DNA of 64,000 bases. It comes from Diphasiastrum complanatum. Lineage: Eukaryota > Streptophyta > Lycopodiopsida > Lycopodiales > Lycopodiaceae. The first letter of the stretch is position 1; each line of letters begins with the position of its first letter. A program made the translations under genes and the position numbers. Where the stretch lies: the NCBI GenBank assembly GCA_029204225.1, contig CM055095.1, positions 21,805,252 to 21,869,251 on the forward strand, given 5' to 3'. The notes beneath the pieces are model-generated. The model was given only the letters and a program-made list of their open reading frames with translations. It did no database searches and was not told the DNA's origin. Shown one piece after another: positions 23,157 to 30,801 of the stretch.

Positions 23157-24897
23157 GTGTACCATACTCGAATCTTGTAAGAGTACGTGACTTAACTCAT
23201 AACAACCGGACTTAGGATGCCGAGAAAAAAATTCTTACAATAGCTTAAGCCTATGTTAACCAATACGCATGCATGACCAACCCTTATCATATTTAATACC
23301 CGAAACCCATTGCAAGCAAGATTTATAGTATTATTACAAATGCATGGGTAATAATGAGTTTTGCCCACCGTATCGGTGATATTCCATACTGCATCATACA
23401 TGAATAAGAGTTGAAGTAATCTCTTGGGAACTATCCATCTTCAACTGCTTAAATGAATCACCTACGTGCTAAAAGCATTCAAACCGAAGGTATAGGGTTA
23501 CCCATAATGTACTTTTTAAAGCCTCATAAGGTCATCATCAAGAATTACTTGTTTTTCTGAAGATTAGTTATGTAGCTTTTGGGTTGTGTGCATTCCCCAC
23601 CATATACAGACTATCAACGATCATAACCATTTATCTCAAGTGCATACAATCATACGAAGCATACTTTGTACTGCTAACTTCCCCATACTCACAGCTATTA
23701 TCATATTAGTTATCACAATTGGATAACTTCATAGTTTCTATCAGATCAAGAGAGCATTAGCAGGAACAATATTACGTGAAAGGTTATAGCCAACCGAGTT
23801 TTATAAGAGCATTCTAAACAACCATGTTTATGCTATAGCTTATGATATCTCCATGAAACACTTGAAAGGACATCGATCAAATCACATTCTCAATAGCATG
23901 AGACACCGCTCATACCACGAGCTATATCAAATCGCATTCTCAAATGCATGAGACACTGCTCATACCATGAGCTATAGCAAGTCGCACCAAATGCAATCAT
24001 TTCTGAGTAAAATATTAGCGCTGGCCAGCGGCCTAATCCACCACAGGGAGGGCACTGGCCAGCGGCCATCCATTCCTTATAAAGTATGATAATGATAATG
24101 AACAATAAGCTTGTTGTCTAGCGCCTATCACAAGCCAAAAGGGCTGATAGAATACCTGAAAATCTGCCCACTTTTGCTCCTTGGAATAGCGTTTGATCGT
24201 GGGAGTATCCAATGATAGTATACAGGCCGATTGTTTGCTACTACACAAAGAAATTCACAAAAAAACTGCAAGCATTCATCGTAAAGTTTTGCTTATATCT
24301 TAAATCATCAGCGAGCTATCATTACTCAAATCTATCTCACCTTTGTTTGCAGTATTACTCCACCAATGCCTTTCCAATAGCAATGACGAGCATTCTCTTC
24401 AATCACAATCACAACATGGTAGAGTACCAGGAGAGCAAGAAGGAGAGAGAGAGAGAGAGAGAGAGAGAGAGAGAGAGAGAGAGAGAGAGAGAGAGAGAGA
24501 GAGAGAGAGAGAGAGAGAGAGAGAGAGAGAGAGAGAGAGAGAGAGAGAGAGAGAAAGCATAAGGAGAAGTGAATAGGGTTATGTGATTTCCCTTGTTATA
24601 AAACCAGAGGACACTTAGGTGTACTAAGTGCAGATTGTTGTCCATCGTTAGATTAATTGTCCATAATGTGCACAGATTCTGGCCATTGAAAGATTCACAA
24701 TTTTCCCACCATATTTAAACTTTTTCTAATATGTGGGATCTTCTATCATAGTAAGGCATTTTTTTGCCCCCACTAGTAAATAAGGTTAGTACACGACATT
24801 TAATTCCACAGAGGCTTGCGAAGCGAATAAAGTGATATACGTATGCAACAGAGTCCATGAGAGAGAGAGAGAGAGAGAGAGAGAGAGAGAGAGAGAG
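23157..24897. repeat. Long direct repeat, copy 1 (putative PLE pseudo-LTR)
   Basis: Nearly collinear with 29,137-30,801. Shared blocks include GTGTACCATA.TCGAATC, GCCCACCGTATCGGTGATATT, CACCTACGTGCTAAAAGCAT, the GAGACACCGCTCATACCA motif repeated twice, AGGAGAGCAAGAAG before a (GA)n tract, CAGATTGTTGTCCATCGTTAG and GGTTAGTACACGACATT before a final (GA)n. Copy 1 has about 85 bp (about 23,250-23,335) missing from copy 2. Internal (GA)n tracts are 24,441-24,553 and 24,859-24,896. The pair brackets the PLE coding region. Confidence 0.85.
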
Positions 24898-24937
24898 CCC
24901 ACCAATTGTACCCACAACTAGCAAAGTCTCTCAGGAG

Positions 24938-24971
24938 GCAGTTAGCACCCTTGAGATGGAGTGCTAACTGC
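24938..24971. other. Perfect 11-bp hairpin
   Basis: GCAGTTAGCAC (24,938-24,948) and GTGCTAACTGC (24,961-24,971) are exact reverse complements around a 12-nt loop. It lies between the end of the direct repeat and the 3' end of the PLE coding remnant. It may be a structural element of the PLE 3' end; this is inference. Confidence 0.7.
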
Positions 24972-27900: not shown

Positions 27901-28411
27901 TTGGCCTGACAAAATTCAAAGGCAGATTGATTTCCCACATCACAGATTTCTTGTGAGAAGGACTCTAACTGAGAAGCACTGTCTTCATCAAGGTCTTCGG
28001 TAAAAATCAAAGGGTGAGGTGAAGTAGGAGTAGTAGCAAGGACAGGGGTATCAGTAGAGGAGTCACCATTTTCTTTTTTTAAGTAAGCAAATACTTTTCA
28101 AATATGCGTATTACAAAACGTTTCTTCAGTAGCAATTCGTTCAGCATAGTTTGAGAGGTCCATATAATTTTTTTAACCATGCTAAGGGTTTCCTTCTTTT
28201 TAATAAAATCCGTATAAATTTTGATCCAATCCATGATGCACATCAAATCAACAAGGCAAAGAATTTTATCATCCGGGCCAGTAGCATTACAAGTAGTCAT
28301 ATCATAAGCAGTATTCAATTTGTGAACTTCAACAGCTTTCTTCATGCAACATATAATATTCTGAACAAAAGGACTAGGAGGAGGAAGGGGCTCCCCATAG
28401 CCAAGTGTCAC
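24972..28411 (-). pseudogene. Penelope-like element polyprotein with reverse transcriptase, decayed
   Basis: Successive minus-strand frames read from 28,411 down. 28,411-27,029 is an unrecognised N-terminal part with a Cys cluster (FFKCRCGDKCKNN) and a basic stretch. 26,902-26,396 includes GLYHIPLHKSNINEV. 26,288-26,076 has the finger motif KAHKNAFRWITNA. 26,066-25,734 has the first catalytic block TDITKCYENIPL. 25,598-25,260 has MGFACSPTWCNWYL, the catalytic FHYIDDICFINN, and the family-typical WVYPLEYLTI...VNFLNITTTF. About 25,250-24,972 holds thumb-like remnants with a frameshift. These motifs mark Penelope-like reverse transcriptases, relatives of telomerase RT. No GIY-YIG endonuclease is visible at either end. 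Several stops and frame changes make it non-functional. Confidence 0.8.
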
Positions 28412-29136
28412 TGCATCCTGAAACCATCCTGTGGACTACACCATACAATAGACCTTGTTAGCCATAAAATACAAGTAAAGGTAAAGGTTTGGTACTACCC
28501 CAACCAAAGGGTAGTCGGGGTGGCATCAGAGATACTAGAGAGAGAGTAACAAGATTTCACATAGTCTCTCTTGACAAGTCAAGACCAAATACTTTGAACC
28601 CTTCAATTTATAGCATAACAGGAGTACATAAAGCGAAGCAAGTTTTAAGATGCACAACTGTTAACTGCCAACGTCCCACACAACAAAACTGCACAAGTTA
28701 TTCGCGTGAGAAAGACAGGTGTCATAGTTGAGCATCAGTTGTTATTCATGTCCGAAACAAGATTCACTACTTTATCAACTAGATTGCATTAACAACAAGT
28801 ACGTCCAATCTTCTCAATCGTTTCACTTTCTAAATAAGCAACACGTTCCGCCCTTTAACAAAGCCGTATCTAGACAGAAGCCATATTGATCAATAAAAGA
28901 GCAAAATGGAACATATTAGGTTCACAAGTACACTTACATGTAAGCAGCTATCTTTCATTACACTGATGGACAACGACTTGACATTGGTCACAGTGATAGG
29001 TACTAGAGCACCTCCATCCTATACTAGCCTCAAATCGGGGAAAATGAAGAACTGTCTTTGCCCCATGGATTCCCCGTACTACTTTTTATGGGAATCCAAG
29101 CACCGAACAACTTGGGCAATTCCATGCCATTCGTGT
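28412..29136. other. PLE 5' side; hairpin at 28494-28515
   Basis: ACTACCC (28,494-28,500) and GGGTAGT (28,509-28,515) form a perfect 7-bp stem with an 8-nt loop. No further coding sequence is recognised between the PLE N-terminal frame and direct-repeat copy 2. Confidence 0.5.
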
Positions 29137-30801
29137 ACCATAGTCGAATCATGTAAGAGTACGTGACTTAACTTATAACAACCAAACTTAGGATGCCGAG
29201 AAAAAATTCTTACAATAGCTTAAGCCTGGGTAATAATGAGTTTAGGCTGCCCACCGTATCGGTGATATTCCATACTGCATCACACCTGAATAAGAGTTGA
29301 AGTAATCTCTTGCGAACTATCCATCTTCAACTGCTTAAACGAATCACCTACGTGCTAAAAGCATTCAAACCGAAGGTATAGTGTTACCCATAACGTACTT
29401 TTTAAAGCCTCATAAGGTCATCATCAATAAGTACTTGCTTTTCTGAAGATTAGTGACATAGCTTTTGGATTGTGTGCATTCCCCACCATATACAGACTAT
29501 CAACGATCATAACCATTTATCTCAAGTGCATACAATCATACAAAGCATACTTTGTACTGCTAGTTTCCCCATACTCACAGCTATTGTCATATTAGTTATC
29601 ACAGGTGGATAACCTCATAGTTTCTATCAGATCAAGAGAGCATTAGCAGAAGCAATATTACGTGAAAGATTATAGCCAACCCAATTTTATAAGAGCATTC
29701 TAAACAACCATGTTTATGCTATAGCTTATGATATCTCCATGAAACACTTGAAAGGACATCGATCAAATCACATTCTTAATAGCATGAGACACCGCTCATA
29801 CCATGAGCTGTATCAAATCGCATTCTCAAATGCATGAGACACCACTCATACCATGAGCTATAGCAAGTCGCACCAAATGCAACTATTTTTGAGTAAAATA
29901 TCAATGCTGGCTAGCGGCCAAATCCGCCACAGGAAGGGCGCATCCATTCCTTATAAAGTATGATAATGATAATGAACAATAAGCTTGTTGTCCAGCGACT
30001 ATCACAACCAAAAGGGTTGATAGAATACCTGAAATTTGCCCACTTTTGCTCCTTGGAACAGCGTTTGATCATGGGAGTATCCAATGACAGTATACAAGCC
30101 GAATGTTTGCTACTACACAAAGAAATTCAAAAAAAATTGCAAGCATTCATCATAAAGTTTTGCTTATATCTTACATCATCAGCGAGCTATCATTACTCAA
30201 ATCTATCTCACCTTTGTTTGTAGTATTACTCCACCAATGCCTTTCCAATAGCAATGACGAGCATTCTCTTCAATCACAATCACAGCATGGTAGAGCACCA
30301 GGAGAGCAAGAAGGAGAGAGAGAGAGAGAGAGAGAGAGAGAGAGAGAGAGAGAGAGAGAGAGAGAGAGAGAGAGAGAGAGAGAGAGAGAGAGAGAGAGAG
30401 AGAGAGAGAGAGCATAAGGAGAAGTGAATAGGACCAGAGGACACTTAGGTGTACTAAGTGCAGATTGTTGTCCATCGTTAGATTAACTATGTGCACAGAT
30501 TTTGGCCATTAAAATATTCACAACTTTCCCACCTTTTTTAAACTTTTTCTATTATGTGGTGTCTTCTATCATAGTAAGGCATTTTTTTGCCCCCACTAGT
30601 AAATAAGGTTAGTACACGACATTCATGTTCCACAAAGGCTTGCAAAGCGAATAAAGCATTATATGTATGCAATAGAGTCCACGAGAGAGAGAGAGAGAGA
30701 GAGAGAGAGAGAGAGAGAGAGAGAGAGAGAGAGAGAGAGAGAGAGAGAGAGAGAGAGAGAGAGAGAGAGAGAGAGAGAGAGAGAGAGAGAGAGAGAGAGA
30801 G
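29137..30801. repeat. Long direct repeat, copy 2 (putative PLE pseudo-LTR)
   Basis: Same orientation and block order as 23,157-24,897, with (GA)n at 30,315-30,412 and 30,682-30,802 in the equivalent positions. The tract lengths differ between copies (about 113 versus 98 bp, and about 38 versus 120 bp), while the flanking sequence stays close. Confidence 0.85.

Follow-up and report, generated by a model that had tools for sequence, protein, structure and literature searches.

Element and direct repeats

The stretch of DNA analysed here (the window) comprises 64,000 nucleotides from the clubmoss Diphasiastrum complanatum (assembly GCA_029204225.1, contig CM055095.1; C4:21805252-21869251 in the 1.745-Gb genome) and contains a Penelope-like element (PLE) lying between two long direct repeats. 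Read along the minus strand, one direct repeat (30801-29133) is followed by the 5' untranslated region (5'UTR), a broken first open reading frame (ORF1), a broken second frame (ORF2) with a reverse transcriptase (RT), and the other direct repeat (24897-23157; Table 1). With a probability of roughly 0.7, we interpret this as a decayed copy of a high-copy, dispersed PLE family without a recognisable endonuclease, in which the repeats, or pseudo-long terminal repeats (pLTRs), arose by partial tandem copying and copies recurrently end at a CT tract, for which we propose internal priming.

A sequence-only reading of this DNA had described a PLE-type RT between two same-orientation repeats of about 1.7 kb. 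Self-alignment bears out the repeats: 29133-30801 and 23157-24897 are about 91% identical, in blocks of 1561 columns at 90.7% and 96 columns at 93.8%, with a Kimura two-parameter (K2P) distance of 0.059 (61 transitions and 20 transversions at 1444 ungapped sites outside microsatellites). The element as described is real, an RT lying between repeats, with two corrections: the RT gene is decayed, with three in-frame stops in the RT core and several frameshifts, and the right-hand repeat edge (29133/23157) is no family boundary, being the point where the downstream copy gives way to (AG)n. In tandem arrays on C1 and C6 the repeat extends through about 600 nt of the 5'UTR. The (AG)n at the 3' end of the window copy (23043-23155) has a polarity opposite to that of the (CT)n terminus common elsewhere, and is perhaps the relic of an inverted copy.

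An RT flanked by 1.7-kb direct repeats could also mean that the repeats are ordinary LTRs of an LTR retrotransposon, or that an unrelated tandem duplication happens to enclose an RT. This is very improbable: a six-frame Pfam search of the internal region matched RVT_1 alone, with no integrase, RNase H, gag or protease; inspection by eye revealed neither a 5-bp duplication at the repeat edges nor a primer-binding or purine-tract site; and two genome copies are tandems with 5'UTR tails. We rejected the LTR retrotransposon reading on the lack of integrase, RNase H and gag matches and of a target duplication visible by eye.

Table 1. Element parts and related fragments in the window, with the evidence for each
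Feature	Position in window	Strand	Evidence
Upstream pseudo-LTR, beginning in a (TC)n tract; remnant 3'UTR of a tandem copy truncated at its 5' end	29133..30801	-	91% identity to 23157-24897; runs straight into 5'UTR
5'UTR of the full copy	28436..29132	-	pieces align in 7/7 fetched genome regions at 75-95%
(CT)5 tract, frequent end of genomic copies; proposed internal start of reverse transcription	28537..28546	-	9/10 ending junctions; 4/5 copies stopping within the 5'UTR
ORF1, broken; fold unassigned; CRCGDKC near 27.53 kb; ends KLNFYRD-stop	27029..28435	-	stop-free frames of 253 and 118 codons; stop common to C3, C15 and C23 copies
ORF2, broken: CxC-DKA-reverse transcriptase-thumb	24967..27028	-	overlapping open frames in genome copies L041 and L033
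CxC motif (CTC), then GHV	26720..26728	-	stretch score against the approximate Penelope-like protein reached by 0/1000 shuffles
DKA motif (presumably like the DKG of PLEs)	26331..26339	-	stretch score reached by 2/1000 shuffles
RT core, three in-frame stops	25260..26327	-	RVT_1 E=4.9e-5; 3/6 apparently mussel loci, E=4.6e-10 to 6.7e-5
YIDDI catalytic motif	25458..25472	-	translated sequence
RT thumb and C-terminus, frameshifted	24967..25300	-	score against L001: 0/2000 shuffles, 0/822 control frames
Downstream pseudo-LTR, 3'UTR of the full copy	23157..24897	-	repeat alignment
(AG)n (sense strand) adjoining the 3' end of the window copy; atypical terminus	23043..23155	-	microsatellite scan
Fragment of PLE 5'UTR/tail, 79%	17868..18017	+	alignment
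5'-truncated tail of the same PLE family, ending in an 80-nt CT tract	47837..48148	+	alignment

Reverse transcriptase and ORF1

The motifs named by the sequence-only reading as PLE hallmarks (KAHKN, TDITKCYENI, YIDDI and WVYPLEYLTI) are present on the minus strand, and the RT core matches Pfam RVT_1 at E=4.9e-5 (23.6 bits, under the curated cut-off of 29.6 bits). Upstream of the RT, a PCTC (CxC) motif occurs in the window and also in the C15 and C23 copies. Genome copies L041 (an open frame of 559 aa, with CxC) and L033 (571 aa, with the thumb) overlap and jointly span most of ORF2.

Comparison with animal sequences suggests where this RT belongs. We used an approximate sequence of an invertebrate protein that we take to be Penelope-like; in a two-sequence comparison it matched the window RT core at E=1e-15. 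As a query, it also led to six DNA loci in symbiont assemblies, at least five of them linked to deep-sea mussels and all six apparently mussel host contamination. The window RT aligns with three of these (E=4.6e-10, 1.3e-8 and 6.7e-5, values that apply to the six loci only). In block tests against the approximate protein, the observed score was reached by 0/1000 shuffles for the CxC stretch, 2/1000 for DKA and 0/1000 for the thumb, while the ORF1 stretch gave no signal (831/1000). Against L001, the thumb score was reached by 0/2000 shuffles and by 0/822 control frames taken from other parts of the window; a further control, the adjacent frame of the thumb stretch, scored lower but was itself unusual (24/2000 shuffles). 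Among seven subject sequences, L033 ORF2 matched L001 DNA at E=2e-16 over 190 columns and the approximate protein at E=3e-25 over 439 columns; in the same comparison the copia frame of the window gave E>=0.33 and its Ty3-like fragment no match.

RT, thumb and upstream motifs are thus collinear with one animal family, presumably a PLE family. Since that status is presumed, the name PLE leans not only on sequence likeness to this family, which supports a PLE-type RT, but also on structural evidence, namely the tandems and tails. CxC and DKA upstream motifs are features of the Naiad/Chlamys clade. Searches of PDB and NCBIfam gave no match recognising the window RT, and neither it nor the approximate protein found an RT relative in phage, plasmid and viral collections. 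Genomic RVT_1 matches could not serve as LINE references because we take them, judging from their long frames, for Ty3-type elements.

Animal-type retroelement sequence was seen inside symbiont genome assemblies at L001-L006, L086 and L087, where it is probably contamination from the mussel hosts. In L087 the match to the approximate protein begins at the CxC region and in L086 further on, and no GIY-YIG was noticed by eye in either contig.

ORF2, with CxC and RT, is preceded by an ORF1 of unassigned fold, so that the layout is one of two ORFs. The cysteine cluster that the sequence-only reading had noted as unrecognised in the N-terminal part is CRCGDKC of ORF1; it sits in a 253-codon stop-free frame (mononucleotide shuffling of the internal region, done 300 times, gave stop-free runs of up to 161 codons), and ORF1 has no credible match in Pfam or PDB. 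The ORF1 stop (after KLNFYRD) is common to the window and the C3, C15 and C23 copies.

Copies across the genome

A search for further copies, proposed by the sequence-only reading, found at least 114 RT places and at least 40 pLTR places; all genome copy counts given here are lower bounds. With the RT probe, 114 of 5601 candidates were scored and gave 117 matches of 57-100% identity, the window included, some with long open frames. With the pLTR probe, 40 of 584 candidates were scored (84-100% identical), two being the window's own. Placement along the chromosomes is dispersed: of 64 RT places on contigs of known length, 4 fall in the terminal 5% at either end, where 6.4 are expected; the family thus lacks the confinement to chromosome ends of telomeric endonuclease-deficient PLEs, and the window contains no telomere repeats.

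Seven of the 40 pLTR places were examined, at 14-17 kb each. In all nine cases within these regions, the 3' end of the pLTR runs directly into 5'UTR, and two regions (C1 and C6) contain the series pLTR-5'UTR-ORF1-ORF2(RT)-pLTR-5'UTR tail. Because these copies are head-to-tail partial tandems, they explain the pseudo-LTRs as parts of such tandem copies, which is how the sequence-only reading had accounted for them. Repeat copies without PLE sequence and with target duplications of their own, which would speak for a separate repeat, have so far not appeared, though no systematic search for target duplications was made: the copies on C8, C10 and C14 have no ORFs and keep the pLTR/5'UTR junction, C8 and C10 ending at the common terminus described below.

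Recurrent 3' terminus at a CT tract

On the 3' side, copies of this family recurrently end at one (CT)5 tract inside the 5'UTR (window 28537-28546), where they are joined to (CT)n. A probe of the 5'UTR tail gave 42 matches from 40 scored of 3514 candidates, and 20 junctions were examined, leaving out the window and places already studied. Ten run on to the start of ORF1 and ten stop; in nine of the latter the element ends at the (CT)5 tract, and what follows is (CT)n of 14, 146, 188, 90, 74, 204, 124, 78 and 96 nt (74-204 nt in eight). The long CT belongs to the terminus, because in all ten continuing junctions the internal tract is short, at most 12 nt. By comparison, CT tracts of at least 74 nt number ten in the 64-kb window (both strands, the element's own included), or about 8e-5 per oriented site. 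The seven larger regions add five copies whose ends lie in the 5'UTR: one ends away from the (CT)5 tract and four end at it, long CT following in two of the four. As for ten 5' ends, those of the window, C5, C1 and C4144 copies lie at or next to a CT tract, and that of C10 at the inner tract of the pLTR. C8 and C4144 have a common 3' flank and are probably one insertion.

We infer that the recurrent tail reflects internal initiation of reverse transcription. We propose that (GA)n 3' ends prime on (CU)5, given that the terminus shared by many copies is a CT tract and that CT repeats follow at most of the ends sampled. The template would be RNA transcribed through tandem copies; within a microsatellite, a nick, a break or a stalled fork would offer a (GA)n 3' end, which would pair with the internal (CU)5 and prime reverse transcription there without dependence on an endonuclease. 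Synthesis would then proceed back through the pseudo-LTR, often with 5' truncation, and might sometimes close at another pyrimidine tract.

Alternatively, the same element may have acquired its terminal (CT)n at insertion, the tract having grown by slippage or by repeated copying of (CU)5 at initiation. In favour are the C6 copy, whose 3' end carries about 110 nt of CT while its 5' junction has none, and two copies that terminate at the tract but lack long CT. The C1 and C4144 copies point the other way: their 5' ends adjoin the pyrimidine-rich end of another dispersed repeat (its likeness assessed by eye), which resembles a pre-existing target. On balance we consider growth at insertion somewhat unlikely. 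A bolder variant, which we rate as quite improbable, is an endonuclease-free PLE whose telomerase-like RT would reiteratively copy (CU)5, add (GA)n to DNA 3' ends, much as telomerase extends telomeres, and then copy the rest; if true, the PLE would generate as well as use CT microsatellites.

A dispersed repeat (likeness assessed by eye) ending in the pyrimidine-rich sequence TTAATAAA(A/G)CTTTC lies directly upstream of the L013 and C1 copies and is possibly the target of those insertions. In the 64-kb window there are 14 AG/CT microsatellites of at least 20 nt (1390 bases in total), of which five lie inside the element or at its edge; long examples are at 19715-19857, 33954-34143 and 37209-37316.

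Several observations weigh against a dispersed, endonuclease-lacking PLE family with internal priming. The copy in the window does not end at the common CT terminus but gives way to (AG)n at the pLTR edge. Among the other copies, L080 ends 2 nt before the (CT)5 tract, C8 and C10 stop at the tract but lack a long CT run, and C14 ends elsewhere in the 5'UTR; four of the ten 5' ends (C13, C8, C14 and C6) have no CT tract, and that of L012 falls inside the end of ORF2. The C13 copy stops or is interrupted inside ORF1, and that of C5 has a 6.3-kb interruption in ORF1 and is lost once more near the start of ORF2. The junction sample covers 20 of the 42 matches; within it L069 and L070 share a flank, to be counted once if independence is wanted, and the continuing junctions L074/L075 and L084/L085 look alike. 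Moreover, the link to PLEs runs via an approximate protein sequence and DNA found with it, the RT has no PDB match, and scoring for GIY-YIG domains covered 150 of 471 candidates.

Endonuclease

The sequence-only reading had seen no GIY-YIG domain at either end of the element, and we found none by Pfam in six frames of the internal region (24898-29133), by a loose pattern in six frames of 22900-31100, or by Pfam in sense frames of the 3 kb upstream of the C3 and C23 copies. At the C-terminal position, where EN(+) (endonuclease-bearing) Penelope/Poseidon elements, including Dryad, have this domain, the pLTR follows the thumb directly, and the N-terminal domain of the Naiad/Chlamys clade is likewise lacking in the element. 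A hammerhead ribozyme, which the EN(+) Penelope/Poseidon group has in its pLTR, gave no Rfam match at gathering score in the whole window or at E<=10 in 22900-31100, and a core-pattern scan of 22900-31100 gave one match, in ORF1, and none in the pLTR.

Craig and colleagues reportedly described, in 2021, Naiad/Chlamys PLEs with an N-terminal GIY-YIG, a CxC linker and a microsatellite bias. The present element resembles that clade in its RT with CxC and DKA, its pseudo-LTRs, its association with microsatellites and the lack of a detected hammerhead, but differs in that no GIY-YIG was found, that a separate ORF1 has another cysteine cluster and that termini lie at one internal CT tract. This likeness, including the reported microsatellite bias, raises the possibility of a canonical Naiad/Chlamys-type PLE whose GIY-YIG is absent from the sampled copies or supplied in trans by separate GIY-YIG ORFs, the microsatellite preference being that of the endonuclease. 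The genome does hold such domains, with 150 scored profile matches among 471 candidates. However, the 150 scored GIY-YIG places are all more than 10 kb away from each of the 114 RT places, the smallest distance being 18.9 kb (321 candidates unscored), no RT was noticed by eye among ORFs of at least 80 aa in four GIY-YIG loci, and the upstream regions of the C3 and C23 copies lacked the domain, as noted. We therefore regard a canonical element as unlikely.

Among the scored GIY-YIG matches, 27 of 150 are clustered in 1.8 Mb of a single chromosome (G000:C8:638799-2440116; loci L062-L065). These frames are separate, of about 98-155 aa and in some cases tandem, with no RT seen by eye beside the four that were read.

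Comparison with known Penelope-like elements

The tail, the CT tract, the two-ORF layout and the genome-wide family go beyond the first reading of this DNA. Coprina is the name of one endonuclease-deficient PLE group. In the excerpts of the published work on which the following comparisons draw, endonuclease-deficient PLEs (Athena and the EN(-) elements of Selaginella and conifers) resemble the present family in having an RT without endonuclease and in occurring in non-flowering plants (PMC3846280, PMC9033089, PMC12477314). Those elements are largely confined to chromosome ends (PMC3846280), whereas the present family is dispersed along chromosomes. The Poseidon element PAc of Anolis offers a parallel for the termini: it forms partial tandems with pLTRs, and its reverse transcription begins at internal sites 111-118 nt into the ORF, close to the ORF start, which are also where genomic copies end (PMC11167929). 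Unlike the present family, it has GIY-YIG and a hammerhead and favours AT-rich DNA, and there is no homology between its start site and the DNA that is cut (PMC11167929). Dryad elements of conifers are also plant PLEs, but they are EN(+), belong to the Penelope/Poseidon group and have been attributed to horizontal transfer from arthropods (PMC9033089, PMC10473749).

As plant PLEs, one review passage names just two kinds, the EN(-) elements of Selaginella and conifers and the Dryad elements of conifers (PMC9033089). For one flowering-plant genome, a combined 'Penelope-like element/LARD' class is given at 21% (PMC7848005, in excerpt), a label that we would not take as proof of flowering-plant PLEs. 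We found nothing in the open-access literature joining Penelope, lycophyte and microsatellite, and among the matches listed for open-access clubmoss literature there was no mention of Penelope; both are weak evidence.

Other features of the window

A copia polyprotein frame (57695-61381, plus strand) runs for 1229 aa without a stop, matches RVT_2 at E=1.2e-81 and is perhaps a young insertion. Fragments of a Ty3-like element lie at 34841-36363 (RVT_1 E=9.9e-5; Retrotrans_gag E=4.4e-9), and a fragment of a LysM-type receptor kinase, a gene type that points to a land plant, lies at 115-1434 (minus strand; best PDB match 3.7e-48). Elsewhere in the genome, 11 matches to dynein heavy chain (best 1.7e-41) and 11 to chlB-like fragments (best 3e-24) were obtained; no chlB-like match exceeded the cut-off for full length, and related proteins also score in 3 of 14 control genomes. 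Neither gene is known to occur in flowering plants, which makes a non-flowering host probable.

Implications

As a decayed PLE with pseudo-LTRs, the element is of an ordinary kind, and so is the host in which it occurs; the lack of a recognised endonuclease, the dispersal and the CT termini set this family apart. With it, the known plant PLEs gain a dispersed, high-copy family that has no recognised endonuclease. The terminus hints at how a PLE without a recognisable DNA-cutting enzyme could choose its insertion sites and, since many junctions point to one RNA priming site and one type of DNA partner, the priming rule is directly testable. Furthermore, the CT-joined termini may bear on the window's wealth of long CT microsatellites.

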